DNA of 64,000 nt from Mitsuokella multacida DSM 20544 (GCF_000155955.1 NZ_GG697144.2:570-64569); one strand, 5' to 3'; positions 24,756 to 38,303 are shown, numbered from the stretch's first letter. Program-made: numbers and translations. Notes: generated from the sequence alone by a model not told the origin.

Positions 24756-26066
24756 TCAGAAGAAGAATTCAAGCTCGCCGTAGAGGTTCTCGATCTTGTT
24801 ATCCGTCGCGATGTTCTTGCCGTTTGCATAGCGCAGCGTCGTGACGACATTGCGGAACGGCGTGTAGTTCGCGCCGACTTCCCAAGCCTTCTGGCCCTGC
24901 AGGACAGCATCGAACGTGGAGAACAGAGCCGTGTTGTCACCGAGGTAACGATATGCGGCCCACGCACCCCAAGTGCCCTTGTTCTCAGCATCAGCGCCCT
25001 TGTAGTCGTACTCCGCGCTCCAAGCCTTGTTGAGGTCATCAGCCGACGTGTTGTTGGCGTAGAAGCCGTTGAGTGCGCTCGTGCCGTCGAAGTTGTAGCC
25101 AGCCTTGGCAAGCCAGATGTTGGCATTGTCCTCACTGGACTGGCTCGTCAGATTGTCTTTGACGTAGTTGAACGAGTCCGCATTGAGATGATGGTAATCG
25201 ATGCCGCCGTTGAACTTGCCGGCTGCGTAGCCGAGGCCAGCGAACTGGTAGTTGGCCGTATCATCGCTGTTGACGATCTTTGCCGTCTCTTCATTGCGGA
25301 AGTTGTTGGAGGCGCTGACATCATCCATGTCGAGGCGGCCTGCGCCCGCCGTGAACGTCACCTTGTTGCCGAACGTGACCTGGCCGCCCGAGAACTCCGT
25401 ATCGAAGATGCTGTCATCATCAATCGGGTTGAACTTGCCGAGCTTGACCTGGAAGTTCTTGTAGTCGCCCTGCGCGTAGATGCGGACGAGGTCAAGGTTC
25501 GTGTCCTGCGAATCGCCATGGAGCGGGTCTTTCGTGTCGCTGCTGTCTTTTGCCAGATCCGTGTAGGCATCGATACGGGCATTGACATGCCAGTTGCGGT
25601 TGACCTCAGCGCTCGGCTCGAGGCGCAGCAGCAGCTCATCGTCGTTGCTCTTCGTACCGGCATCCTTATCGCGCTGGCTCCAGTACTGGTAGAGGGCCTC
25701 GCCGTTCCACTTTACCTTGTCGGCGTTGCGCTCGAGGTTGCTGACGCGGACGCCGAGGTTGTTGAGCTCATCGGAGAACTCAGCGGCGAGTTTGTCGATC
25801 AGGGCCTTGTCGGCAGCGGAGACATCGCTCTTGGCCATAGCCTTTGCGATCATCTGAGCCATCTCATAACGCGTGATGTTCTGGTTGCCACGGAACGTCG
25901 TGTCGCCATAGCCTTCGATGACGCCATCAGCAGCGAGCTGGGATACAGCATCGTAAGCCCAGTGGTCAGCCGGTACATCGGAGAACGGGTTGGCAGCAGC
26001 AAACGTCGTGCTGGCAGCGCCGACGACGAGAGCCGTCGTCAGTGCAGATACGAGAGTCTTCTTCAT
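24756..26066 (-). CDS. SLH-domain outer-membrane porin, OmpM type (copy 1)
   Basis: 436 residues: signal peptide (1-24), one SLH domain (about 26-78, with F-S-D-V-P-A-D-H-W-A-Y), a coiled coil (about 80-115), then a porin beta-barrel ending in the aromatic E-F-F-F. In Selenomonas and Veillonella such proteins bind polyamine-decorated peptidoglycan through SLH and tether the outer membrane while forming pores. The first 115 residues are almost identical to the other four copies here, and the barrels differ. ATG at 26066 follows GGAGGAG; a TTG one codon earlier is unlikely. Confidence 0.93.
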   Translation of the reverse strand: MKKTLVSALTTALVVGAASTTFAAANPFSDVPADHWAYDAVSQLAADGVIEGYGDTTFRGNQNITRYEMAQMIAKAMAKSDVSAADKALIDKLAAEFSDELNNLGVRVSNLERNADKVKWNGEALYQYWSQRDKDAGTKSNDDELLLRLEPSAEVNRNWHVNARIDAYTDLAKDSSDTKDPLHGDSQDTNLDLVRIYAQGDYKNFQVKLGKFNPIDDDSIFDTEFSGGQVTFGNKVTFTAGAGRLDMDDVSASNNFRNEETAKIVNSDDTANYQFAGLGYAAGKFNGGIDYHHLNADSFNYVKDNLTSQSSEDNANIWLAKAGYNFDGTSALNGFYANNTSADDLNKAWSAEYDYKGADAENKGTWGAWAAYRYLGDNTALFSTFDAVLQGQKAWEVGANYTPFRNVVTTLRYANGKNIATDNKIENLYGELEFFF

Positions 26067-26129
26067 CAAGAACTCCTCCTTCTAGAATAGAGTGAATCAT
26101 CTTGAAGCGCTCACGGAGCAATCCGGCAA

Positions 26130-26146
26130 GAGTATCCATGTTTCCT
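26130..26146 (-). promoter_or_regulatory. Conserved porin leader element, copy 1
   Basis: Minus strand GGAAACATGGATACTC, a diverged copy of the element found before all five SLH porins. It opens a possible short reading frame (ATG at 26139) that overlaps the porin start in another frame. Confidence 0.6.
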
Positions 26147-26178
26147 ATGCGCTTCTCCATCAGCCCTTCAACGCATTC

Positions 26179-26207
26179 ATTGTAACACAGCAACAACGGA
26201 ATTGCAA
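26179..26207 (-). promoter_or_regulatory. Promoter of porin 1
   Basis: Minus strand TTGCAA (26202-26207), 17-base spacer, TACAAT (26179-26184). Start of transcription near 26172 gives a 5' UTR of about 105 bases. Confidence 0.7.
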
Positions 26208-26247
26208 ATCACTATCAATTAAAATAATCGAAACCAGAGATTCGCGC

Positions 26248-26280
26248 AAAAAAAGGCCTCCGCCAAAGCGGAGGTCTTTT
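26248..26280 (-). terminator. Terminator after porin 2
   Basis: Minus strand AAAAGACCTCCGC TTTG GCGGAGGCC TTTTTTT. Confidence 0.9.
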
Positions 26281-26310
26281 GTATTGCTTGTGGATCTGCT
26301 AATCGAAGAA

Positions 26311-27618
26311 TTAGAAGAACATCTCGATACGGCCGAAGAGGTTCTCAACCTTATTGTCCGTAAGGAGATCCTTGCCGTTACCATAGCGCAGCGTTGCAAC
26401 AACGTTCTTGAACGGAGCGTAGTTCGTGCCGACTTCCCAGCCCTTCTGACCAGCGAGGATTACATCGAACGTGGAGAACAGATCCGTGTTCTGGCCGAGG
26501 TAGCGATAAGCTGCCCAAGCACCCCAAGTGCCCTTGTTCTGAGCTTCAGCGCCCTTGTAGCTGTACTGAGCGCTCCAAGCCTTGTCGAGTTCGTCAGCCG
26601 ACGTGTTGTTGGCATAGAAGCCGTTCAGGGCATTCGTCTTATCGAAGCGATAAGCAGCCTTTGCGAGCCAGATGTTGGCATTATCTTCGTTGGCCTGCTT
26701 TGCGCCTTGTTCCGTGCCATCTTTCTTTACATACTGGAAGCTGTCAGCATTCAGATGATGGTAGTCAACACCGCCGACGAACTTGCCATCTGCATAGCCG
26801 AGGCCAGCGTACTGGTAGTTAGCCGTCTTCTCGTTGCCAACTGTGAACTTCTGCGTGAAGTCACTGTCGCTGTCCATGTTCTGGCGGCCAGCACCAGCCG
26901 TGAACGTTACCTTGTTGCCGAACTGGACTTCAGCGCCGGAGAACGAGGTATCAAAGATGCTGTCGCTATCAATCTGAGCGAACTTACCGAGTTTGACCTG
27001 GAAGTTGTCGTAGTTGCCCTGAGCCCATACGCGCTTGAGCGTAACATCCGTGTCCTGTTTGCTGTCCTTGCCATGCTCACGGTTGACATCAGCGCTGTCC
27101 TTTGCGAGGTCCGTGGAAGCATCGAGACGTGCATTGACATGCCAATGGCTGTTGACTTCAGCGCTCGGCTCGAGGCGGAACAGGAGCTGATCGTCGTTCG
27201 TCTTCGTGTTTGCATCCTTGTTGCGATGGCTGTAGTACGTGTACTCAGCCTTGCCGTTCCACTTAACCATGTCAGCATTGCGCTCGAGGTTGCTGACGCG
27301 GACGCCGAGGTTGTTGAGCTCATCGGAGAACTCAGCAGCGAGCTTGTCGATCAGGGCCTTATCAGCAGCGGAGACATCGCTCTTAGCCATAGCCTTTGCG
27401 ATCATCTGAGCCATCTCATAACGCGTGATGTTCTGGTTGCCACGGAACGTCGTGTCGCCATAACCTTCGATGACGCCATCAGCTGCGAGCTGGGATACAG
27501 CGTCGTAAGCCCAATGGTCAGCCGGTACATCAGAGAACGGGTTTGCAGCAGCAAACGTCGTGCTAGCAGCGCCGACAACGAGAGCCGTCGTCAGAGCGGA
27601 TACGAGAGTCTTTTTCAT
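26311..27618 (-). CDS. SLH-domain outer-membrane porin, OmpM type (copy 2)
   Basis: 435 residues with the same signal peptide, SLH domain and coiled coil as copy 1, then a barrel ending E-M-F-F. Its barrel is the closest to copy 1 (shared Y-A-G-L-G-Y-A and W-L-A-K-A segments), so the two probably arose by a recent duplication. ATG at 27618 follows GGAGGAG. Own promoter, leader element and terminator, so it is an independent unit. Confidence 0.93.
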   Translation of the reverse strand: MKKTLVSALTTALVVGAASTTFAAANPFSDVPADHWAYDAVSQLAADGVIEGYGDTTFRGNQNITRYEMAQMIAKAMAKSDVSAADKALIDKLAAEFSDELNNLGVRVSNLERNADMVKWNGKAEYTYYSHRNKDANTKTNDDQLLFRLEPSAEVNSHWHVNARLDASTDLAKDSADVNREHGKDSKQDTDVTLKRVWAQGNYDNFQVKLGKFAQIDSDSIFDTSFSGAEVQFGNKVTFTAGAGRQNMDSDSDFTQKFTVGNEKTANYQYAGLGYADGKFVGGVDYHHLNADSFQYVKKDGTEQGAKQANEDNANIWLAKAAYRFDKTNALNGFYANNTSADELDKAWSAQYSYKGAEAQNKGTWGAWAAYRYLGQNTDLFSTFDVILAGQKGWEVGTNYAPFKNVVATLRYGNGKDLLTDNKVENLFGRIEMFF

Positions 27619-27684
27619 AAAGAACTCCTCCTTCAAAAAATAGAAATGAACATTTTGTCCAAGTTCCATCGGAGGATTCCTCAT

Positions 27685-27794: not shown

Positions 27795-27838
27795 AAAAAA
27801 CCTCCTGAACAGGGAGGGGGAACTTTCCGTTCAGGAGG
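27795..27838 (-). terminator. Terminator of the phytate operon
   Basis: Minus strand CCTCCTGAAC ... GTTCAGGAGG followed by TTTTTTATTATTA, about 45 bases after the HD-protein stop. Confidence 0.9.
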
Positions 27839-27883
27839 GGGGAAACATACTTTATAGGCCTTTAGGAGGAGATATCTTCTCAA

Positions 27884-29032
27884 TTAACCGGGGATAACGA
27901 TATCCAGAACAGTCTGGCGGAATGCGTCATATCCCTGATCCACGAGGATCTGATAGAGATGCATATCCGATGCTTGCGAATAGACGTAGTTGCGCAGGTT
28001 GTAGAACTTACTGCTATCAAGGTCTGCTTTCGTCAGGCCGTAGTCAGACAAAGCAACCTTTTTCAGGTATTCCTGTGTCCAGGACGAAATACCCGAAGTC
28101 AGGACAAAATCATGGTCGCCGAGGTGTACCAGGAAGGATTCCGGGCGTCTCGGCAGGGGCAGCGTCTCGCCATCCGGTGCCAGATAACCTTCCTTGATTG
28201 GATCTTTGCCAGCGATGATGGCAGCCGCCTTGATATAGCCGACTGGTTTCTTTTCTTCACTCGGCCAGCCCGCATGATCATGGGATACCGCCACAGCAAC
28301 TACAACATCCGGACGCAAGCCGCGGTACATGCAGTCTGCGACCTGCTGGATGTGATGGCAGCCCGTGCCGGCAATCTTGATTTCCGGCAGGCACTTGTGA
28401 TCCGGAGTCCACTGCAGGATCCATGGTTTAGTCAGGTCGTGCAGCAGCACCGCTTCCGTCAACAATTCACGATTCATGGAATAGCCGAAGAATTGCTCGT
28501 AATTCTCGATCAGGCTCAGTCCTGTCTGGAGATCCGTTGCCACATGCGTGATCAGGCCGCATGGATACGCGTGATGACCGCCCCAGCCTGCACCGGCAGC
28601 ATCCCAGAAATTCAATTTATTCTTGACTTCGGGGAAAATCTGGTCGATCGTGTTCTCTTCTTTGATATATCCAGCGGCCAGCAGTGCCTTGCGGCAGGCT
28701 TCCTTGCTCGCCTTATCCGGGTATTTCTTCAAGATCAGCGGCTTTGGAGATTTCAAGCCCTCTAAAACAACCTTCTTGACCGTCTCATCCTGAAGGCCAT
28801 TCGCCTTGTCCATGAGCCAGTTATAGCCATACTCGCGCAATGGCGAGCGCTTAGCCATCTCAGTCGGTGACAATTTCTCCATCTCCGAGAATTTAATGGC
28901 CGTCGTCTCGATGTTGCGCGGTGCGGCAAATCCCTGCTTGGGTAGGATAGAAGCTGCTGCAAATGCAGCAGCAGCGCCTGCAGCCGTTTTCAGGAAATCC
29001 CTGCGATCGATTGATTTGTCCCAGATTGCCAT
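27884..29032 (-). CDS. Tat-exported HD-domain metal-dependent phosphohydrolase
   Basis: 382 residues. A twin-arginine signal (D-R-R-D-F-L-K near residue 9, then an Ala-rich hydrophobic stretch to about 36) means export in folded, probably metal-loaded form. The body has an HD-type set: G-G-H-H near 147, L-L-H-D-L-T-K near 205, G-C-H-H and S-H-D-H-A-G-W, and a late G-D-H-D. HD proteins are mostly phosphohydrolases or phosphodiesterases. It follows the tandem phytase by 96 bases, and a hairpin lies between. I infer it acts on a phytate breakdown product. Inositol oxygenase shares the fold, but oxygen chemistry is unlikely in this anaerobe. Confidence 0.8.
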   Translation of the reverse strand: MAIWDKSIDRRDFLKTAAGAAAAFAAASILPKQGFAAPRNIETTAIKFSEMEKLSPTEMAKRSPLREYGYNWLMDKANGLQDETVKKVVLEGLKSPKPLILKKYPDKASKEACRKALLAAGYIKEENTIDQIFPEVKNKLNFWDAAGAGWGGHHAYPCGLITHVATDLQTGLSLIENYEQFFGYSMNRELLTEAVLLHDLTKPWILQWTPDHKCLPEIKIAGTGCHHIQQVADCMYRGLRPDVVVAVAVSHDHAGWPSEEKKPVGYIKAAAIIAGKDPIKEGYLAPDGETLPLPRRPESFLVHLGDHDFVLTSGISSWTQEYLKKVALSDYGLTKADLDSSKFYNLRNYVYSQASDMHLYQILVDQGYDAFRQTVLDIVIPG

Positions 29033-29066
29033 AATAAACCTCCTTCCATTGTGCGATACACAGCAA

Positions 29067-29085
29067 ACAGGCCTAAAAGGCCTGT
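29067..29085 (-). terminator. Intercistronic hairpin between tandem phytase and HD gene
   Basis: ACAGGCCT / AGGCCTGT with a three-base loop, then TTTGCTGT on the minus strand. Its T tract is short, so it may be a leaky terminator or an RNA-stability hairpin that lowers HD-protein expression relative to the phytases. Confidence 0.5.
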
Positions 29086-29128
29086 CCGCTGAATCAAAGT
29101 TGTTTGTTGAGAATACGCTTCATCAGCA

Positions 29129-31051
29129 TCAGATATCCTGATGTGCGGCGAGCCACTGACTCCAGCTCGTCTTGAATCCGTCCGCATGATTCTCCTGGAC
29201 GTACTGATAGAACTTCTCTACCATGTGAGCCTTCTGGTGATAATAGTCAGCCTTCCACTGATCCGGCTTCGGTTTTGCGATTTCATAAGCAACGTAGTTG
29301 CCGCCGAGCAGGTACTGACGCGAGAGGATATCGCCCAGCGAGACATCCGGATTCTTCATCATATCGTACATGGCCATGTAAGCCGTCGTGCGGCCTACAC
29401 CAGCCTGGCAGTGGAAATGCAGCCAAGCATTTGCCGGCATCGTGCGCGTGAAGTTGATGAACTCATCGATATTGGCGGCCGACGGCCAGATGTGATCCGT
29501 TGCCGCAATGCGATAGTAATGGAGGCCATTCTTCTCGACCAACTGCTGTTCCGTCATGACGGAATCAATCTTGACTGGTTTCGGATCGATTGGCATCTTA
29601 TTCTTATCAAGCGCTGCTACGATAAGGCTCTTGCCTCTTGCTGCGTTCAGGCGGCTGTTCTCGTCCTTGAGTACCTCTGCCTTGTTCTTGCCGAGATTAC
29701 CCCAATCGCGCAGACCGTACCAGCTGACTGCATTGCCGTTGAAGACACCGTGCGTCTCCTGACGGAGGTCCATGATGTAGATAGGACCTTTCGCCTGCTG
29801 TTTGAGGACTGGCAACATTGCCTGGAGCTCACCATTGGAGAATTCCGCACTGCCCGACATGTAGAGCGTATCAAGTCCCTTGCGCGTCGGCGTCGGGTTG
29901 AAGCCCTTGCCTGTCTTCTTGAGATTGACATCCGTCTTGAAGGCCGAATTCATCGTGCGGAAGTTGCGTGGCAGCTGATTGCGGTCTTTCGTGTCCATGC
30001 GCCAGATGTAACCGCTGTAATCCGGCTCCCACGAATTGACCTTGTTCTTCTTGGCCCAGACACTGTACGGCGTCTTGAGGTCAGGATTCTCTTTTACATA
30101 ATCATAGAAATGCTGGACAAACTGATAGCGTTCGATATACGCCTTGCGGCCGTAGTTCTTCTTCTTATCTGGAATCTCGCTGAGGTCGACAATGCCGATG
30201 AGCTTCTGACGCTGGATGATGTCGTCGAAGCTGACATCCTTCGCATTCTTGAGAATATCGTGCATGACCATGAAGATGGTCGTGCGGCCCATGCCGGCAT
30301 AGCAGTGGTAATGCAGCCATGCATCCTTCGGTAGGGATTTATAGAACTCCAGGAACTTGTCGACATCGGGATCATCCGGGCGGAAGTGATCCTGCAGCGT
30401 CAGGCGGAAGTAGTTAGCGCCGTGCTGTTTGACCATCTCTTCCTCGGTGCGAACTTTGTTATAGTTGACATAGACCGGGGAAAGGAGCACATTCTTTTTA
30501 TCATCAAAACGATAAATCGATTTAACGGTGCTATCCTTGAGTGAAGCGAGCTGCTCTTTCTCCAGCGGGATGATGATGTCTTCGGTGCGACCATCATTGC
30601 CCCAGTCATGGTTGGCAAACCAGCTAACTGCCGTACCATTGAGATAGCCATGCGATTCGCCGCGCAGATCCACATCATAGAACTGCGACGGTTTTACCGG
30701 CACCTTTTTGAGGATTGCTTCCAATTCCTTCTCAGAGAAGCAGCTGGAAGCCGAGACATTCATCGTATCCATGCCTTTACGAGTCGGCATAATACCGGTT
30801 TTCGTCACACCAACATACTTGTCATTACCCGTGCGGAAGTTGCGTGGCAGCTGATTGACGTCAGCGCGGTCAATCTTCAAAGCAAGTTTCGGCGGATTCT
30901 TGACGACCGCAGGAGCCTGAGCTTCAGCCGAGACTTCCTGTACGACTGCAGCTGGTGCCTGTGCAGCCCACGAGGTCCCCGGCAGCTGTGCACTGCCGAG
31001 CATAACAGCAACGGCAACAGAGAGCAATGTCTTTTTCTTGAAACTTATCAT
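29129..31051 (-). CDS. Tandem-domain protein-tyrosine-phosphatase-like phytase
   Basis: 640 residues: signal peptide (1-29), then two phytase domains of about 290 residues each. Both carry the P-loop HCX5R: H-C-Y-A-G-M-G-R with Cys250 and H-C-Q-A-G-V-G-R with Cys548, and both keep the general-acid loop (D-H-F-R-P and D-H-I-W-P), so both look catalytically competent. This family (PhyA of Selenomonas, tandem enzyme of Mitsuokella multacida) strips phosphates from myo-inositol hexakisphosphate stepwise. ATG at 31051 follows GAGGAG. A TTGAAT/TAAAAT pair at 31108-31136 may give it an extra promoter. Confidence 0.93.
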   Translation of the reverse strand: MISFKKKTLLSVAVAVMLGSAQLPGTSWAAQAPAAVVQEVSAEAQAPAVVKNPPKLALKIDRADVNQLPRNFRTGNDKYVGVTKTGIMPTRKGMDTMNVSASSCFSEKELEAILKKVPVKPSQFYDVDLRGESHGYLNGTAVSWFANHDWGNDGRTEDIIIPLEKEQLASLKDSTVKSIYRFDDKKNVLLSPVYVNYNKVRTEEEMVKQHGANYFRLTLQDHFRPDDPDVDKFLEFYKSLPKDAWLHYHCYAGMGRTTIFMVMHDILKNAKDVSFDDIIQRQKLIGIVDLSEIPDKKKNYGRKAYIERYQFVQHFYDYVKENPDLKTPYSVWAKKNKVNSWEPDYSGYIWRMDTKDRNQLPRNFRTMNSAFKTDVNLKKTGKGFNPTPTRKGLDTLYMSGSAEFSNGELQAMLPVLKQQAKGPIYIMDLRQETHGVFNGNAVSWYGLRDWGNLGKNKAEVLKDENSRLNAARGKSLIVAALDKNKMPIDPKPVKIDSVMTEQQLVEKNGLHYYRIAATDHIWPSAANIDEFINFTRTMPANAWLHFHCQAGVGRTTAYMAMYDMMKNPDVSLGDILSRQYLLGGNYVAYEIAKPKPDQWKADYYHQKAHMVEKFYQYVQENHADGFKTSWSQWLAAHQDI

Positions 31052-31125
31052 AAGATTTTCACTCCTCTTCTAAAGCAAACATATGCTTTATATACGTAGC
31101 GAATCAAATTTTACCGTACCTTTGA

Positions 31126-32076
31126 TCAGAATTCAAATCCATTTTCTTTTGTCCACTGCGTGTACGTTTTCTTGAGCTGTGGATTAGCCTTGACGTATTC
31201 GTAGAAATGACGCGTGAACAAAGCGCGCTTCGGATAGTTCCCTTTCTTATAGGCATCCTTCGTTGTCTCTGCCGACTTGCGGACATCTTGACCACCAAGC
31301 AACACTTCGCGCGTCATGATATCGTCGTAGGAAAGCTTGTCGGCGTTCTTAATCATATCCATGAGCGAGAGGAAAATCGTCGTGCGGCCTACACCGGCCT
31401 CGCAGTGAACATGAATCCAAGCATTTTTCGGCAATTTCTTGTAGATGGCCAAGAATTCATCGACATTTGCCGGGGTCGGTGCAGAGTAGTCCATGACCGG
31501 CACACGATAGTACTTGACGCCCATCGATTTGACGAACTGTTCTTCGGTCTGTACCGAATTGACATGTTCGACCTTCTGCGAAGCAATATCCTTGTGCTTG
31601 TCCAGCGTAGCGATATCAACATCCTGGTTCATCTTGGCCGTTTCGAGCATGCTCTTCTCGCGGCGATCGATTTCCTTGGCCGATTGACCTTTGTTGAAGG
31701 TTTTGTAGCGCGAATACCAGCTGATGCCATCATCATTGATGTAGCCATGCGATTCATTGCGCAAATCGATGACGACAAGATCCTTGGCTGGTACATGCTT
31801 CAGGAGTTCCTTGAATTCATTCTTGGAGAAGAAGCTGCTACCGGACTGACGCAGTTTATCCAGGCCTTCACGCGAGGGATAGATTCCATCCTTTGCCGTC
31901 TTATATTGGCTCTGAGCCGTGCGAAAATTGGCGGGCATCTCTGAGACAGCCGCGGGGCGATCGTATTTGAGAATCTGCACGCCCGGTACTGGCTCTGCGG
32001 CAAATGCCGCAGCCGTCGACAACATCGCCGCAACAGTAAGAGCTGCAATTCTTTTGCTGATTCCTGAATAATTCAT
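31126..32076 (-). CDS. Protein-tyrosine-phosphatase-like phytase, single domain
   Basis: 316 residues: signal peptide (about 1-27) and one PTP-like inositol-phosphatase domain. The P-loop H-C-E-A-G-V-G-R-T-T with Cys225 is identical to the Selenomonas ruminantium PhyA motif, and D-Y-S-A-P supplies the general acid. It should hydrolyse phytate in the periplasm or outside the cell. ATG at 32076 is 11 bases from GGAGG; the ATG at 32097 lacks a site. Second gene of the operon, 42 bases after the porin gene. Confidence 0.93.
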   Translation of the reverse strand: MNYSGISKRIAALTVAAMLSTAAAFAAEPVPGVQILKYDRPAAVSEMPANFRTAQSQYKTAKDGIYPSREGLDKLRQSGSSFFSKNEFKELLKHVPAKDLVVIDLRNESHGYINDDGISWYSRYKTFNKGQSAKEIDRREKSMLETAKMNQDVDIATLDKHKDIASQKVEHVNSVQTEEQFVKSMGVKYYRVPVMDYSAPTPANVDEFLAIYKKLPKNAWIHVHCEAGVGRTTIFLSLMDMIKNADKLSYDDIMTREVLLGGQDVRKSAETTKDAYKKGNYPKRALFTRHFYEYVKANPQLKKTYTQWTKENGFEF

Positions 32077-32118
32077 GCTGACATTTTCCTCCTTCATGGA
32101 TTTTAGCGGGGTCGTTGC

Positions 32119-33327
32119 TTAGAATTTCGTCGTAAACTTCAGATACGTGGAATAATGCGGGGATTTCTCCAACGAGTTGCCATCTTTATCCACATTGGCA
32201 CCATCCGGGTTCGTATGTGCCCAATAACGGAGCAACGAGAGTTTGGAATGATCGCTCGTCGCATAATCCATGATCAAGCCAAATCCTTTGAAACCATCGG
32301 CTGTGATGTAATCATCCCAATCCGTGTAGTTATCATTCATAAAGAGGTTCTGGTCGACATTGAGATACTGTCCAATGATATCCCAGGTTCCCTTCTTCTT
32401 AGCCTTACCGTAATTCAGGCTGATGACATAACCTTGCGTATTCTTATTGGCGCCAAAGTACTCATAACCATAACCGTTATCTACCTTACCAAAGCCAGGT
32501 TTGGTTTTATTGGTATTCCGTACATATTCAGCGGAGACGCCAAACTTGCCCACAACCGGCGTTGAGCCATAAACACCGAAGTAGCGCTCAGGCTGCTGTG
32601 TACCGAAATACAGGCCAGCATATGCATCCTTCGAGAAATCATGCTGATACTGTGCAAATTTCAGCAGGCGCGTGCGAGCGGGTGGATTGTCATCACTCGT
32701 ATCATTGACCAGGTAATCCTGTGAATCGCGACCATAGCCGAGATACAGCGCATCATGTGGCGTCATTTTATAGTTGGCCGTGAACTGATTCACGCTCGAT
32801 TTAGAGAGCCAAAGACCTTCACCAAGGGATACCGTCTGAACACCAGCCTTCACATAGACAGGGCCGAAGGAGCGACCGACATATGCCTGCTCTAATTTGA
32901 TCTTGTTCTTTTCCGAAGAGTACTTTTTACCATTCGGCTCAGATGATGTCGACTTGAATTTGAGGCCAAGACCGACATCGTACGTCTTATCTACTACTGT
33001 CGTTGCTAAAATCTTCGCTTCCGCCTTGATCTTACCGGTCTTTTTCTCGTCATACATGTAACCAGACTTTGTAGAACCCGACCACTTGATCGTCGGTGCC
33101 TCTTTCTTGGCCTTCTTCTCGCTCTTAGCTGCCTCCTGCTTTTCCTTCGCAGCAGCCAAGCTGTTCTCCAAATCGGTCAAGCGTGCCGTCAAATCATTGA
33201 TCTCTGCCTGCATAGCTGCTACGTCGGTATCTGCAGCAGCTGCTTCTGCTGTGCCGCCATTAAAGCATACTGGCATCAGCATTGTAGCCGTAATGCCCAA
33301 GACGATTGCTTTCTTTTGATTCTTCAT
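32119..33327 (-). CDS. Outer-membrane porin without SLH domain, phytate operon
   Basis: 402 residues: signal peptide (about 1-28), coiled coil (about 34-68) with a Lys/Glu-rich end, then a beta-barrel rich in aromatic and Gly strands ending T-T-K-F. Unlike the five OmpM copies it has no SLH domain. First gene of the phytase operon; I infer it admits phytate, lower inositol phosphates or released products, with the many Lys residues giving anion preference. ATG at 33327 follows GGGGG; a TTG at 33333 is less likely. Confidence 0.85.
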   Translation of the reverse strand: MKNQKKAIVLGITATMLMPVCFNGGTAEAAAADTDVAAMQAEINDLTARLTDLENSLAAAKEKQEAAKSEKKAKKEAPTIKWSGSTKSGYMYDEKKTGKIKAEAKILATTVVDKTYDVGLGLKFKSTSSEPNGKKYSSEKNKIKLEQAYVGRSFGPVYVKAGVQTVSLGEGLWLSKSSVNQFTANYKMTPHDALYLGYGRDSQDYLVNDTSDDNPPARTRLLKFAQYQHDFSKDAYAGLYFGTQQPERYFGVYGSTPVVGKFGVSAEYVRNTNKTKPGFGKVDNGYGYEYFGANKNTQGYVISLNYGKAKKKGTWDIIGQYLNVDQNLFMNDNYTDWDDYITADGFKGFGLIMDYATSDHSKLSLLRYWAHTNPDGANVDKDGNSLEKSPHYSTYLKFTTKF

Positions 33328-33634
33328 CTGCAAATCCCCCTAATATGATTCTTGTGATTCTTTCCTATGACAGAAGGTCAAGCGCGCTGTTATGACTTAT
33401 CTGGTTCTTATTGTAGCAGATTGTTCCATATCAATTCCTCTTGTATTTTGCGGAAACCTCACGAAAATCTATGTATTCTTGCGTTTATTTGTATTAAAGG
33501 AAACTTTCTGACTATATCCCACGTCCTTCTGCAGCAGAATTACGGGTGAATGTTCAAAAAATTAACAATATCGTATAGAAAAGCAAGGAAAAAATAACAA
33601 TCGTGGGTGTCTACCTTGTATCAGCCCCATAAAC
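33328..33634. other. Upstream region of the phytate operon
   Basis: About 300 AT-rich bases. TACAAT (minus, 33410-33415) is a reasonable -10 for the operon but the matching -35 is poor, which may mean an activator is needed. No gene, repeat or recognised phosphate box was seen in 33430-33634. Confidence 0.45.
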
Positions 33635-33716: not shown

Positions 33717-35018
33717 TCAGAAGTGGAATTCGACGCGGCCGAAGAGTTTCTCGGCATCTTTGCCGTTGTCGATGTTCTCGCCGTTGAAGTACTTGACGCT
33801 TGCTACCGTGTTCTTGAAGAGCGTGTAGTTCGTGCCGACTTCCCAGCCCTTCGTGCCGGCCCAAGCGCCATCGTAGGACGGGTCAAAGGCTACGTTCTGG
33901 CCAAGGTAGCGGTAAGCGGCATAAGCGCCCCAGGTGCCCTTGTTGGCAGGCTCCGCGCCCTTGTAGTCGAGCTCGACCGTGCCGGCCTTCTTGTAGTCGT
34001 CGGCCTTCGTGTTCTCGGCATAAGCGCCGCCGAGGGCGACGTTCTTGTCGAACGCATAGTGGAAGTTGGCGCTCCAGATGTCGGCATTGTCCTCATCCTG
34101 CGTGGACTTGTAGCTCGTGCCCATCGCCGTGAAAGCATCACTGTTCAGATGATGGTAGCCGGCGCCGAGGCTGAGCTTGCCCTTGCCGTACTGCAGGCCG
34201 ACGCTCTGCATATTGGCCGTGTCGTCTTTCTCCGAAGCAGCTTTGTTGACAGCGCTGTTGTTCGTATCGCCATTGAGATCGAAGCGGCCTGCCTGCAGCG
34301 TGACCTTGAGGTCCTTGCCCGTCGTGATGGCGGCGCCGGAGATTTCATCATCGAAGAGCAGGTTGCTGTCGAGCTGCATCGGCAGCTTGCCGACCTTGAT
34401 GTTGGTCGTGCCGTACTGGCCATCTGCCCAGAGGCGCTGCAGCGTCACATCCGTGTCCTGCTCATCGCCATGACTGCCATTCGGGTCGGTGCTGTCCTTG
34501 GCAAGGTCCGTGGAGACATCGAGGCGGGCGTTGACGTGCCAGTTGCGGTTGACCTCAGCCGACGGCTCGAGGCGCAGCAGCAACTCATCATCGTTGCTCT
34601 TGCTGTCCTCTTTCGACTTGTCGCGCGTGCTCGTGTAGGTGTAGCGGGCCTCGCCGTTCCATTTTACCTTGTCAGCGTTGCGCTCGAGGTTGCTGACGCG
34701 GACGCCGAGCGTATTGAGCTCATCGGAGAACTCAGCGGCGAGCTTGTCAATGAGGGCCTTGTCGGCAGCGGATACATCCGTCTTGGCCATGGCCTTGGCG
34801 ATCATCTGCGCCATCTCATAGCGCGTGATGTTCTGGTTGCCGCGGAACGTCGTGTCGCCGTAGCCTTCGATGACGCCGTCAGCTGCGAGCTGGGATACAG
34901 CGTCGTAAGCCCAGTGATCGGCCGGCACATCGGAGAACGGATTTGCAGCGGCAAACGTCGTGGATGCAGCGCCAACTACGAGCGCCGTCGTCAATGCAGA
35001 TACAAGAGTCTTTTTCAT
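33717..35018 (-). CDS. SLH-domain outer-membrane porin, OmpM type (copy 3)
   Basis: 433 residues with the common signal peptide, SLH domain and coiled coil (here K-T-D-V-S and E-L-N-T-L instead of K-S-D-V-S and E-L-N-N-L) and a barrel ending E-F-H-F. Its barrel is clearly different from copies 1-2 and its codons look more GC-rich than copies 2, 4 and 5. Independent unit with its own promoter and terminator. Confidence 0.93.
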   Translation of the reverse strand: MKKTLVSALTTALVVGAASTTFAAANPFSDVPADHWAYDAVSQLAADGVIEGYGDTTFRGNQNITRYEMAQMIAKAMAKTDVSAADKALIDKLAAEFSDELNTLGVRVSNLERNADKVKWNGEARYTYTSTRDKSKEDSKSNDDELLLRLEPSAEVNRNWHVNARLDVSTDLAKDSTDPNGSHGDEQDTDVTLQRLWADGQYGTTNIKVGKLPMQLDSNLLFDDEISGAAITTGKDLKVTLQAGRFDLNGDTNNSAVNKAASEKDDTANMQSVGLQYGKGKLSLGAGYHHLNSDAFTAMGTSYKSTQDEDNADIWSANFHYAFDKNVALGGAYAENTKADDYKKAGTVELDYKGAEPANKGTWGAYAAYRYLGQNVAFDPSYDGAWAGTKGWEVGTNYTLFKNTVASVKYFNGENIDNGKDAEKLFGRVEFHF

Positions 35019-35140
35019 GATGAATTCCTCCCATCTTCCTTCTATGGCTCTTCGCCGATATAGAAGGCATCAAGTCAGTCGAGGCAAGTGCCCCGCGCCG
35101 CCTTCGCGGCCACTGTCAGGAATGAGAGCGGGAGAATCGC

Positions 35141-35158
35141 GAGTATCCATGTTTCCTC
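35141..35158 (-). promoter_or_regulatory. Conserved porin leader element, copy 3
   Basis: Minus strand GAGGAAACATGGATACTC. Here the ATG at 35150 opens a 26-codon frame (M-D-T-R-D...) that stops before the porin; the leader is about 55 bases longer than in the other copies. Confidence 0.65.
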
Positions 35159-35191
35159 TGAGTTCCCTGCCCCTTTCCTTTTGACACCATC

Positions 35192-35220
35192 ATTATATTA
35201 CTTGACTCAGTCAATTACAA
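35192..35220 (-). promoter_or_regulatory. Promoter of porin 3
   Basis: Minus strand TTGTAA (35215-35220), 17-base spacer, TATAAT (35192-35197). The AT-rich stretch 35221-35302 upstream shows no gene. Confidence 0.7.
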
Positions 35221-35302
35221 TTACACAGCCGTTAGAAGTCCATTACACTTTGCTTAGAATAGTTTGCTTAATCAACTATCGCTATCATTGAGAATCTGCA
35301 GG

Positions 35303-35341
35303 CAAAAAAAGCCTTCCGCTGATGCCAGCGGAAGGCTTTTT
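35303..35341 (-). terminator. Terminator after porin 4
   Basis: Minus strand AAAAAGCCTTCCGC TGGCATCA GCGGAAGGC TTTTTTT. Confidence 0.92.
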
Positions 35342-35374
35342 GCTATAGACCTGGAAACAACCGAGGCTATGTTA

Positions 35375-36661
35375 TCAGAACCAGAAGTTCACGCGGCCGA
35401 AGAGCAGCTCTGCATCTCTGTCCGTATCAAGCTTCTTGCCGTTGAAGTAGTAAGCGGCAGCCGTGACGTTCGTGAACGGAACGTACTCCGTGCTGACTTC
35501 CCACCCCTTGACATTGTTGACGCCAGCGTTGAGGAACGTCTCGTACGTCGGAGCAAAGGCGACATTCTGGCCCATGTAGCGGTAAGCCGTGTAAGCCCCC
35601 CAAGATCCCTTGTTGGCTTTCTGAGCGCCCTTGTAGTTGAGCTGGATGTTATGTGCCGTAGCATCTGCTTCAGCCTTTTCGTTCTTGGCATAAGCGCCGT
35701 AGAGGTTCCAGTTCTTGTCGAACTTGTAGCCAGCACCAACAGACCAGATGTTGGCCTCATCCGTGTTCTTCTCGAACCCCTTCGTCTGCGTGAAGACGTT
35801 GCTGTTGAAATGACGGTAAGCAGCACCGCCATAGAGCTTGCCAGCCGTGCCGTTCAGAGCGATACCCTGATAGTTGGCAGCATCGTCATCCGTCTTTCCA
35901 GCTGCATCGTTGAGGTTCGACTGCTTGTTGGCGCTGTTGAGGTTCCAACGGCCAGCCTCAGCCGTGAGCTTGAGCTGGTTGCCGAACGTGACCTGTGCAC
36001 CGGAGAACTGATCATCGAAGAGCATGCCAGCCGTCTCCGTAGAGAAGAACGGCATCTTGCCGAGCTTGACCTGGAAGTTCTTGTAGTCGCCCTGTGCCCA
36101 AACGCGCTTTACCGTCAGATCCGACGTCTCGTCTTTGCTCGGATTCATGAATGCATCGATACGAGCCTTGACATGCCAGTTCTTGTTGACCTCAGCGCTC
36201 GGCTCGAGGCGGAAGTTGAGCTGATCCGTGTTTTTCTTGTCTTTCGAGCCCTTCTCGTTCTCATAACGCTGGCTCCAGTAACGGTAACGAGCCTGGCCGT
36301 TCCACTTGACGTTGTCAGCATTGCGCTCGAGGTTGCTGACGCGGACGCCGAGGTTGTTGAGTTCATCGGAGAACTCAGCAGCGAGCTTGTCGATCAGGGC
36401 CTTGTCGGCAGCGGAGACATCGCTCTTGGCCATAGCCTTGGCGATCATCTGAGCCATCTCATAACGCGTGATGTTCTGGTTGCCGCGGAAGGTCGTGTCG
36501 CCATAGCCTTCGATGACGCCATCAGCTGCGAGCTGGGATACAGCGTCGTAAGCCCAGTGGTCAGCCGGTACATCGGAGAACGGGTTAGCAGCAGCAAACG
36601 TCGTGCTGGCAGCGCCGACAACGAGAGCCGTCGTCAATGCAGATACAAGAGTCTTCTTCAT
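35375..36661 (-). CDS. SLH-domain outer-membrane porin, OmpM type (copy 4)
   Basis: 428 residues: common N-terminal module, then a barrel ending N-F-W-F. Its barrel groups with copy 5 (both have the A-Y-R-H-F-N-S, I-W-S-V-G-A-G-Y-K-F-D and N-W-N-L-x-G-A segments). ATG at 36661 follows GGAGGAG. Confidence 0.93.
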   Translation of the reverse strand: MKKTLVSALTTALVVGAASTTFAAANPFSDVPADHWAYDAVSQLAADGVIEGYGDTTFRGNQNITRYEMAQMIAKAMAKSDVSAADKALIDKLAAEFSDELNNLGVRVSNLERNADNVKWNGQARYRYWSQRYENEKGSKDKKNTDQLNFRLEPSAEVNKNWHVKARIDAFMNPSKDETSDLTVKRVWAQGDYKNFQVKLGKMPFFSTETAGMLFDDQFSGAQVTFGNQLKLTAEAGRWNLNSANKQSNLNDAAGKTDDDAANYQGIALNGTAGKLYGGAAYRHFNSNVFTQTKGFEKNTDEANIWSVGAGYKFDKNWNLYGAYAKNEKAEADATAHNIQLNYKGAQKANKGSWGAYTAYRYMGQNVAFAPTYETFLNAGVNNVKGWEVSTEYVPFTNVTAAAYYFNGKKLDTDRDAELLFGRVNFWF

Positions 36662-36725
36662 AAAGAACTCCTCCTTCATAAAACATTTGGTCATTCTTGG
36701 CTGATTTCACGAAGAAGGTGTTCAT

Positions 36726-36743
36726 GAGTGTCCATGTTTCCTC
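36726..36743 (-). promoter_or_regulatory. Conserved porin leader element, copy 4, with short leader ORF
   Basis: Minus strand GAGGAAACATGGACACTC. The ATG at 36735 heads a complete 14-codon frame (M-D-T-H-E-H-L-L-R-E-I-S-Q-E) ending in TGA 30 bases before the porin start: the clearest case for a translated leader peptide. Confidence 0.65.
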
Positions 36744-36779
36744 AGTTCTTTTCTTTATGACCTCATCCAATTAGTTATT

Positions 36780-36808
36780 AGTGTAACACAATCCTGTTCA
36801 AATTACAA
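36780..36808 (-). promoter_or_regulatory. Promoter of porin 4
   Basis: Minus strand TTGTAA (36803-36808), 17-base spacer, TACACT (36780-36785). Confidence 0.65.
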
Positions 36809-36877
36809 ATTATCCCGGATATGTTTCTATCTTAGCAATCAAATCTATCCTATTAATTTTCTGCATCTTATGCGCGC

Positions 36878-36909
36878 AAAAAAGACCGCTCCCGAAGGAA
36901 CGGTCTTTT
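36878..36909 (-). terminator. Terminator after porin 5
   Basis: Minus strand AAAAGACCG TTCC TTCGGGAG CGGTC TTTTTT. Confidence 0.85.
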
Positions 36910-36939
36910 GATTGCGGAATATGACTTCTGCTGATGGAA

Positions 36940-38214
36940 TCAGAAGAAGAAGCTTACGCGGCCAAACAGCGTCTTGGCATCGCGGTCCGTAGCGAGGTCT
37001 TTGCCATCGAAGTACTCAACAGCCGTGTAGACGTTCGTGAACGGAACGTAGCTTGCACCGACTTCCCAGCCCTTCTCGTTGAGGTGATTATAATGGGCCG
37101 TATCATACGTCGGCATAAGCGAAACGTTCTGGCCGAGGTAACGGTAAGCGGCATAAGCGCCCCACGTACCCTTGTTGGCCGTATCCGAGCCCTTGTAGGA
37201 CAGCTGGATGTTGTGAGCCGTATCGTAGTTGTCGGCTTCCGTGTTCTGAGCGAAAGCACCGAAGAGATTCCAGTTATGGTCGAACTTGTAGCCAGCGCCG
37301 ACGGACCAGATGTTGGCATCGTCCGTCTTGGAATCGTTGCTGTAGTTAGCAATGTTCGTGAAGGCAGCGCTATTGAAGTGACGGTAAGCAGCACCGAGGC
37401 GGAGCTTATTCGGGCCGTAGTTCAGTTCTGCACCCTGATAGTTTGCAGCATCGTCATTCGTTGCAGCATCAGCAATGTGGCCATTAGCATCGTTTGCCAG
37501 ATTCCAACGACCAGCTTCGAGCGTAGCCTTCAGGTCTTTACCGAAGTTGACCTGAGCACCGGAGAAGAAGTCATCCAGTACGAGACCATCATCAGCAACG
37601 GAGTACAGCGGCATCTTGCCGAGCTTGACGTTGAAGTTGCCATACTGGCCGTCTGCATAAACATACGTCAGCTTGACATTGCCATCGTCGCCCTTGTCGC
37701 TGGAAAGATCCGTATTAGCCGTCAGACGAGCATTGACATGCCAGTTGTTGTTGACCTCAGCCGTCGGGTAGAGACGGAACTGCAGCTTGTCCGTGTTGTC
37801 GTTCTTCTCGTCCTCATGACGTGCGCTCGTGTAGGTGTAACGAGCCTCGCCCGTCCACTTTACTTTGTCAGCATTGCGCTCGAGGTTGCTTACGCGGACG
37901 CCGAGATTGTTGAGCTCATCGGAGAACTCAGCAGCGAGTTTGTCGATCAAGGCCTTATCAGCAGCGGAGACATCGCTCTTAGCCATAGCCTTGGCGATCA
38001 TCTGTGCCATCTCATAACGCGTGATGTTCTGGTTGCCACGGAACGTCGTGTCGCCATAACCTTCGATGACGCCATCAGCTGCGAGCTGGGATACAGCGTC
38101 GTAAGCCCAGTGGTCAGCCGGTACATCGGAGAACGGGTTAGCAGCAGCAAACGTCGTGCTGACAGCGCCGACAACGAGAGCCGTCGTCAGTGCGGATACG
38201 AGAGTCTTTTTCAT
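36940..38214 (-). CDS. SLH-domain outer-membrane porin, OmpM type (copy 5)
   Basis: 424 residues, common N-terminal module, barrel ending S-F-F-F, closest to copy 4. ATG at 38214 follows GGAGGAG and begins the signal peptide. The frame stays open up to a GTG at 38295 inside the conserved leader element, which would add 27 residues ahead of the signal peptide; I take 38214 because that extension would mask the signal. Confidence 0.93.
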   Translation of the reverse strand: MKKTLVSALTTALVVGAVSTTFAAANPFSDVPADHWAYDAVSQLAADGVIEGYGDTTFRGNQNITRYEMAQMIAKAMAKSDVSAADKALIDKLAAEFSDELNNLGVRVSNLERNADKVKWTGEARYTYTSARHEDEKNDNTDKLQFRLYPTAEVNNNWHVNARLTANTDLSSDKGDDGNVKLTYVYADGQYGNFNVKLGKMPLYSVADDGLVLDDFFSGAQVNFGKDLKATLEAGRWNLANDANGHIADAATNDDAANYQGAELNYGPNKLRLGAAYRHFNSAAFTNIANYSNDSKTDDANIWSVGAGYKFDHNWNLFGAFAQNTEADNYDTAHNIQLSYKGSDTANKGTWGAYAAYRYLGQNVSLMPTYDTAHYNHLNEKGWEVGASYVPFTNVYTAVEYFDGKDLATDRDAKTLFGRVSFFF

Positions 38215-38285
38215 GAAGAACTCCTCCTTTGGTATAAAACGATTACAATTCTCGTTCAAACGGGACCAAAGAAAAAGAACCGCAT

Positions 38286-38303
38286 GAGTGTCCACGTTTC
38301 CTC
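38286..38303 (-). promoter_or_regulatory. Conserved porin leader element, copy 5
   Basis: Minus strand GAGGAAACGTGGACACTC: the only copy with GTG in place of ATG, and the only one whose leader frame is open and in frame with the porin. Confidence 0.65.

Follow-up and report, generated by a model that had tools for sequence, protein, structure and literature searches.

We analyzed the phytase region of a 64,000-nucleotide stretch of the Mitsuokella multacida DSM 20544 genome (GCF_000155955.1, NZ_GG697144.2:570-64569), which is referred to below as the window. Four genes on the minus strand encode a porin, a single-domain phytase and a tandem phytase of the protein tyrosine phosphatase-like (PTP-like) type, and an HD-superfamily protein (Table 1). 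A first-pass annotation of the window had described these genes as ending at a single terminator, and both the coordinates of the open reading frames (ORFs) and a hairpin at 27838-27801 (z-score -3.4), followed by six T residues, agree with this description. A terminator is likewise present 3' of the HD gene in M. jalaludinii and Selenomonas montiformis. The intergenic gaps, from the porin to the HD gene, are 45, 74 and 96 bases; the last two had been given correctly, whereas the first had been put at 42, and its length varies with the start codon chosen (we preferred the ATG at 32073, behind AAGGAGGA, to the ATG at 32097). Export signals had been assigned to all four products, which our analysis bears out: the twin-arginine translocation (Tat) signal of the HD protein, with the motif SIDRRDFLK, scores 23.4 bits against a cut-off of 22.7 (PF10518), and Sec-type signals of the other three proteins were recognized by inspection.

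Table 1. Features of the phytase operon and its boundaries in the window
Feature	Position	Strand	Evidence
OmpM-like porin without SLH domain	32119..33327	-	AlphaFold2 model; Foldseek match OmpM1; no SLH match; adjoins phytase genes in many relatives
Single-domain PTP-like phytase, Sec-type signal	31126..32073	-	PF14566; P-loop HCEAGVGR; PDB match 3f41
Tandem PTP-like phytase, PhyAmm orthologue	29129..31051	-	PF14566 twice; two P-loops; near-identical to 3f41 and 4wu3
Tat-exported HD-superfamily protein, phytate-linked clade	27884..29032	-	PF10518 Tat signal; invariant metal-ligand positions; YhaM-like fold match; clade support 100/99
RNA hairpin, conserved and lacking a U-tail, between the tandem phytase and HD genes	29061..29091	-	z-score -4.6; spacer conservation
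Intrinsic terminator of the operon	27795..27838	-	Hairpin and T6 tail
Conserved upstream region, candidate promoter or regulatory region	33328..33500	-	Alignment across three species

The assignment of both phytases to the PTP-like type was confirmed by profile searches, in which PF14566 matched the single-domain protein with 95 bits and the tandem protein twice with 195 bits (cut-off 27), and by three intact CX5R P-loops (HCEAGVGR in the former, HCYAGMGR and HCQAGVGR in the latter). The single phytase also matches 3f41 in the Protein Data Bank (PDB). The tandem phytase shares about 97% identity, as counted on the alignment, with this solved M. multacida enzyme, the tandemly repeated inositol polyphosphatase PhyAmm (PDB 3f41, 4wu3); the whole mature protein is near-identical and shares both P-loops, with minor substitutions only. 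A description of the gene context of PhyAmm as given here was not found in the literature searched. PTP-like phytases leave inositol 2-phosphate (Ins(2)P), and both operon enzymes would be expected to share this end point, which is known from their close relatives. A further PTP-like phytase homologue lies elsewhere in the same genome (G000:C5:467300-467725; L117:5139-5825); its identity to the C-terminal repeat is about 35%.

The AlphaFold2 model of the porin has 16 strands behind a short N-terminal helix (residues 34-69), and its best Foldseek match is OmpM1 of Veillonella parvula (E-value 4e-15). It shares the 16-strand barrel with the OmpM porins of Veillonella (PDB 8bym, 8byt; PMC10628300), but its helical stalk is short and no SLH domain was matched in the profile search, in line with the first-pass annotation; neighboring porins of the window possess such a domain. 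Because of the missing SLH domain and the short stalk, the operon porin is not a peptidoglycan tether of the OmpM type. The net charge of its modeled barrel is +8 and is mostly positive among 14 homologues (-7 to +12), while the five SLH porins of the window range from -20 to +5. A positive barrel fits the passage of anions but proves nothing; entry of phytate by this porin is plausible.

M. jalaludinii and S. montiformis have the four genes in the same order (porin, single phytase, tandem phytase, HD), and other Selenomonadaceae show close variants, in which the single phytase or the HD gene comes first, the HD gene is absent, or a chemoreceptor gene follows. The first-pass annotation had proposed looking for this order in the family and had held that its absence from every related genome would count against the unit; since the order is kept in relatives, that is not the case. 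Similarity of the window to S. montiformis extends from about 170 bases before the porin almost to where the HD gene ends; identity is 96-97% for both phytases and the HD protein, against a background of 90% for SHMT and 89% for MreB (an SNF2 helicase with 60% identity was set aside because it would exaggerate the contrast). The higher identity within the block suggests its exchange between genera. At eight loci (L079, L086, L089, L111, L114, L214, L216, L218), a gene for a methyl-accepting chemotaxis protein with a dCache sensor comes after the phytase genes or next to them; its product is a possible chemoreceptor for phytate or inositol.

The phytase clusters of relatives often also carry genes for a major facilitator superfamily (MFS) transporter and a metallophosphoesterase of 970 amino acids. 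The best solved match of the transporter is the glycerol-3-phosphate:phosphate antiporter GlpT (PDB 1pw4; E-value 1e-49), which aligns over its whole length; residues R45, K80, H165 and R269 of GlpT, which we take to be substrate-binding, align with identical residues. The antiporter nevertheless scores below the curated cut-offs (244.9 against 407.75 for TIGR00881, and below those of the GlpT, UhpT, UhpC and PgtP models), and would form a separate branch. The metallophosphoesterase has calcineurin-type, purple-acid-phosphatase N-terminal and laminin-G-like regions.

The two genes occur in an identical set of 24 among 189 genomes of the family, which comprises all 21 genomes with a tandem phytase and three of the 168 others; none of the 165 genomes without the pair has a tandem phytase. 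These counts include pieces at contig ends (the antiporter of G017 and the tandem phytases of G126 and G176). The association has a Fisher p-value of 5e-25, uncorrected for shared descent, and presence covaries within several genera. The pair is physically linked to the phytase cluster in about half of the genomes, and in S. montiformis all six genes stand together. In the genome of the window, the pair lies on another contig than the operon (G000:C6:1408166-1412571, with the metallophosphoesterase gene at 1409661-1412571), together with an AraC-type regulator beside iolC, iolD and iolE (iolC was assigned solely by inspecting the sequence). Judged from its order relative to the inosose dehydratase gene iolE (MJ_0910), the pair of M. 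jalaludinii would lie near MJ_0903-0904. Of the three genomes that have the pair but lack a tandem phytase, two have in the cluster a PI-PLC homologue, which was missed by Pfam and recognized by a PDB sequence search. It has no obvious signal peptide and is flanked by a second MFS transporter on one side and a second metallophosphoesterase on the other (L121:11598-12419, L122:15174-15989), an arrangement that suggests a branch for glycerophosphoinositol or phosphatidylinositol.

A search beyond the family for homologues of the metallophosphoesterase, made irrespective of gene context, gave nine loci. Five of these contain the antiporter and PTP-like phytases; four of the five adjoin iolG, iolE or iolD, and three also carry a beta-propeller phytase (PF02333, E-values below 1e-145 in the two that were scanned). 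The beta-propeller phytase genes, which share a cluster with PTP-like phytase genes and come from families other than the window's, are found at L214:14094-15218, L215:176-1300 and L218:1987-3150. Among the other four loci, two adjoin iolD and iolE with no phytase nearby, one has an HD protein, a PHP-family protein and the antiporter, and one has the antiporter alone. On a proteobacterial contig (L136), hydrophobic leaders are present at the N-termini of two metallophosphoesterase homologues, with no antiporter found near them. This would be expected if the enzyme acts in the cytoplasm only in the company of an importer.

The physiology to be explained has been described in M. jalaludinii. According to one report (PMC7618129), this species grows with phytate as the sole carbon and energy source and turns it into Ins(2)P, which accumulates, then into inositol, which is fermented; free inositol accumulates in the cultures, an inositol transporter and a phosphate uptake system are phytate-induced, and phytase is constitutive. 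Mitsuokella is reported as the only characterized human gut isolate taking phytate fully to inositol and fermenting it (PMC7618129, PMC12482443). The strain studied carries the operon described here. Full dephosphorylation was credited to phytase (PMC7618129), and that report, in the text covered, assigns the phytase and the inositol transporter without mention of an enzyme for the last phosphate, the porin, the HD protein, the antiporter or the metallophosphoesterase. Earlier work deals with phytase and phytate fermentation (PMC7618129, PMC12482443, PMC12838507); in the literature found, no gene is named for removal of the last phosphate.

From the anatomy, gene order, linkage and co-occurrence reported above, we infer substrates, a direction of transport and a compartment for the last step. 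The OmpM-like porin would pass phytate or its products across the outer membrane, and the tandem and single phytases would remove phosphates in the periplasm, stopping largely at Ins(2)P. The GlpT-type antiporter would then import inositol monophosphate against phosphate, the calcineurin/purple-acid-phosphatase-like metallophosphoesterase would take off the last phosphate in the cytoplasm, and the iol enzymes would ferment the released inositol, with the HD protein as an optional periplasmic phosphohydrolase outside the core route. We consider it probable that the operon is thus the outer-membrane and periplasmic half of phytate catabolism, and that the unlinked antiporter-metallophosphoesterase pair completes the route to inositol. 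Several points weigh against this proposal. The roles of the antiporter, the metallophosphoesterase and the HD protein are predicted from sequence and context; the lack of a signal peptide in the Negativicutes metallophosphoesterases inspected was judged by eye; the pair is unlinked to the phytase operon in Mitsuokella; and a PHP-family protein, present in several clusters, is another phosphatase candidate. In addition, the free inositol and the induced inositol transporter of M. jalaludinii suggest that part of the last step takes place outside the cytoplasm.

These last observations are accommodated by an alternative that we consider unlikely, in which the whole degradation takes place in the periplasm: after successive action of the phytases, the Tat-exported HD protein would strip Ins(2)P of its last phosphate, and an inositol transporter would import the free inositol. 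It agrees with the position of the HD gene within the operon in three species, with a phytate-linked clade of HD proteins and with their retained metal ligands. The first-pass annotation had similarly proposed an HD protein that finishes or branches the pathway. Its call of an HD domain was only partly upheld, the Pfam match (PF01966) being weak (14.3 bits against a gathering cut-off of 22; E-value 0.05) but the metal-ligand positions being invariant in 16 homologues (H153/H154, H163, H198-D199, H226/H227, H251, D306). The sole credible fold match found with Foldseek is YhaM, with a probability of 0.99 but an E-value of 0.02. The six metal ligands had raised the idea of a MIOX- or PhnZ-type oxygenase, which we rejected, as none was among the Foldseek matches listed and the host genus is anaerobic. 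The HD proteins encoded near phytase or metallophosphoesterase genes fall into one clade of 11 members (support 100/99), and the three remaining members come from genomes with phytase genes elsewhere. The HD protein belongs to phosphate-ester metabolism, but is optional: its phytate-linked form is present in just 8 of the 21 tandem-phytase genomes, and in M. jalaludinii DSM 13811, a strain that degrades phytate fully, codon 33 of the HD gene (L077:880-2028), where the Tat signal ends, is an amber codon (TAG). Because of this codon and the absence of the gene from most tandem-phytase genomes, a finishing role for the HD protein is unsupported, and its being the essential last step is disfavored. 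The rest of the M. jalaludinii gene differs from that of the window by 40 synonymous changes and just two other amino-acid changes, and the TAG may be an assembly error or may be read through. The gene is also a mosaic, with codons 47-262 almost identical to the window and many synonymous differences in codons 263-383. The HD protein is likely an accessory periplasmic metal-dependent phosphohydrolase, and the pair is likely the better candidate for the last step.

The HD family as a whole is broad, with 80 loci in several phyla, and an alkaline phosphatase gene lies within the fetched flank at 25 of them, usually on the same strand. This neighborhood agrees with an explanation that we find less probable still, namely that the operon serves mainly in phosphate scavenging, inositol being a by-product and the pair handling another organophosphate. 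The unlinked position of the pair in Mitsuokella, and the phytate-induced phosphate uptake and constitutive phytase reported for M. jalaludinii, point the same way. However, the same source describes growth with phytate as the only source of carbon and energy, and the fused clusters of S. montiformis and of other families unite phytases with the pair, several of them with iol genes. A very improbable last alternative, that the phytases themselves slowly remove the last phosphate, as the credit given to phytase in PMC7618129 would allow, or that another phosphatase, for instance the PHP-family protein of several clusters, does so while the HD protein and the metallophosphoesterase have other roles, is countered by the presence of the metallophosphoesterase in all tandem-phytase genomes and by the PHP protein not being found in the antiporter locus of the window's genome or in most family clusters.

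The first-pass annotation had likened the operon to a polysaccharide utilization locus. This likeness holds, and phytate utilization locus is a fair description, because the clusters of relatives extend to transporter, phosphatase, chemoreceptor and inositol-catabolic genes. The fused clusters share with the polysaccharide utilization loci of Bacteroidota the logic of outer-membrane entry, stepwise periplasmic hydrolysis, inner-membrane uptake, and catabolic genes with a regulator, but have a porin at the outer membrane and a phosphate ester as the predicted substrate; no SusC/SusD-like pair was among the scanned neighbors, which were part of the neighboring ORFs. Neither the antiporter-metallophosphoesterase pair nor a phytate porin nor the HD protein was found described in the titles, abstracts and passages that the literature search covered, with subscription journals largely outside it. 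We lean, if only just, toward the further claim that the GlpT-type antiporter and a cytoplasmic purple-acid-phosphatase-like metallophosphoesterase form an undescribed route that takes up the inositol monophosphate remaining after phytase action, with outward exchange of phosphate, and strips its last phosphate within the cell, and that with the porin, phytases, chemoreceptor and iol genes they make up a complete phytate utilization locus in diderm Firmicutes. The comparison thus yields two concrete candidate genes for the last step and explains why the HD gene, although a neighbor in the operon, is the weaker candidate; the gene set is a possible marker set for spotting complete phytate degraders in genomes.

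Two further arrangements were observed around the HD genes. At nine loci from several phyla (L140, L144, L145, L147, L160, L180, L181, L187, L199), the gene for a Tat-exported HD protein directly adjoins, in the same orientation, that of a PhoA-type alkaline phosphatase, which is a wider, unstudied pairing. In Succinivibrio and Succinatimonas (L152, L165, L167, L203, L205) a TatA/B-like gene comes after the HD gene, and L152 also has a TatC-like gene.

Within the operon, the hairpin at 29091-29061, absent from the first-pass annotation, is stronger than that of the terminator (z-score -4.6) and has no U-tail, and the spacer between the tandem phytase and HD genes that holds it is 98% conserved across three species. 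Given this hairpin, the HD gene may or may not be co-expressed with the rest of the operon. Upstream of the porin, the region 33328..33500 can be aligned between the window, M. jalaludinii and S. montiformis, and the sequence farther upstream cannot. Independent internal promoters were considered and rejected: 9/12 promoter-like matches occur upstream of the tandem phytase, but the total of such matches is not above that in shuffled sequence. A Pho-box-like CTGTCATA near 33370, noticed by eye, is not conserved in S. montiformis. The operon lies within a porin array (24756-27684 and 33717-38295) that comprises at least five genes of the SLH (OmpM) type with near-identical 5' parts; Pfam confirmed the SLH domains for two of these genes.

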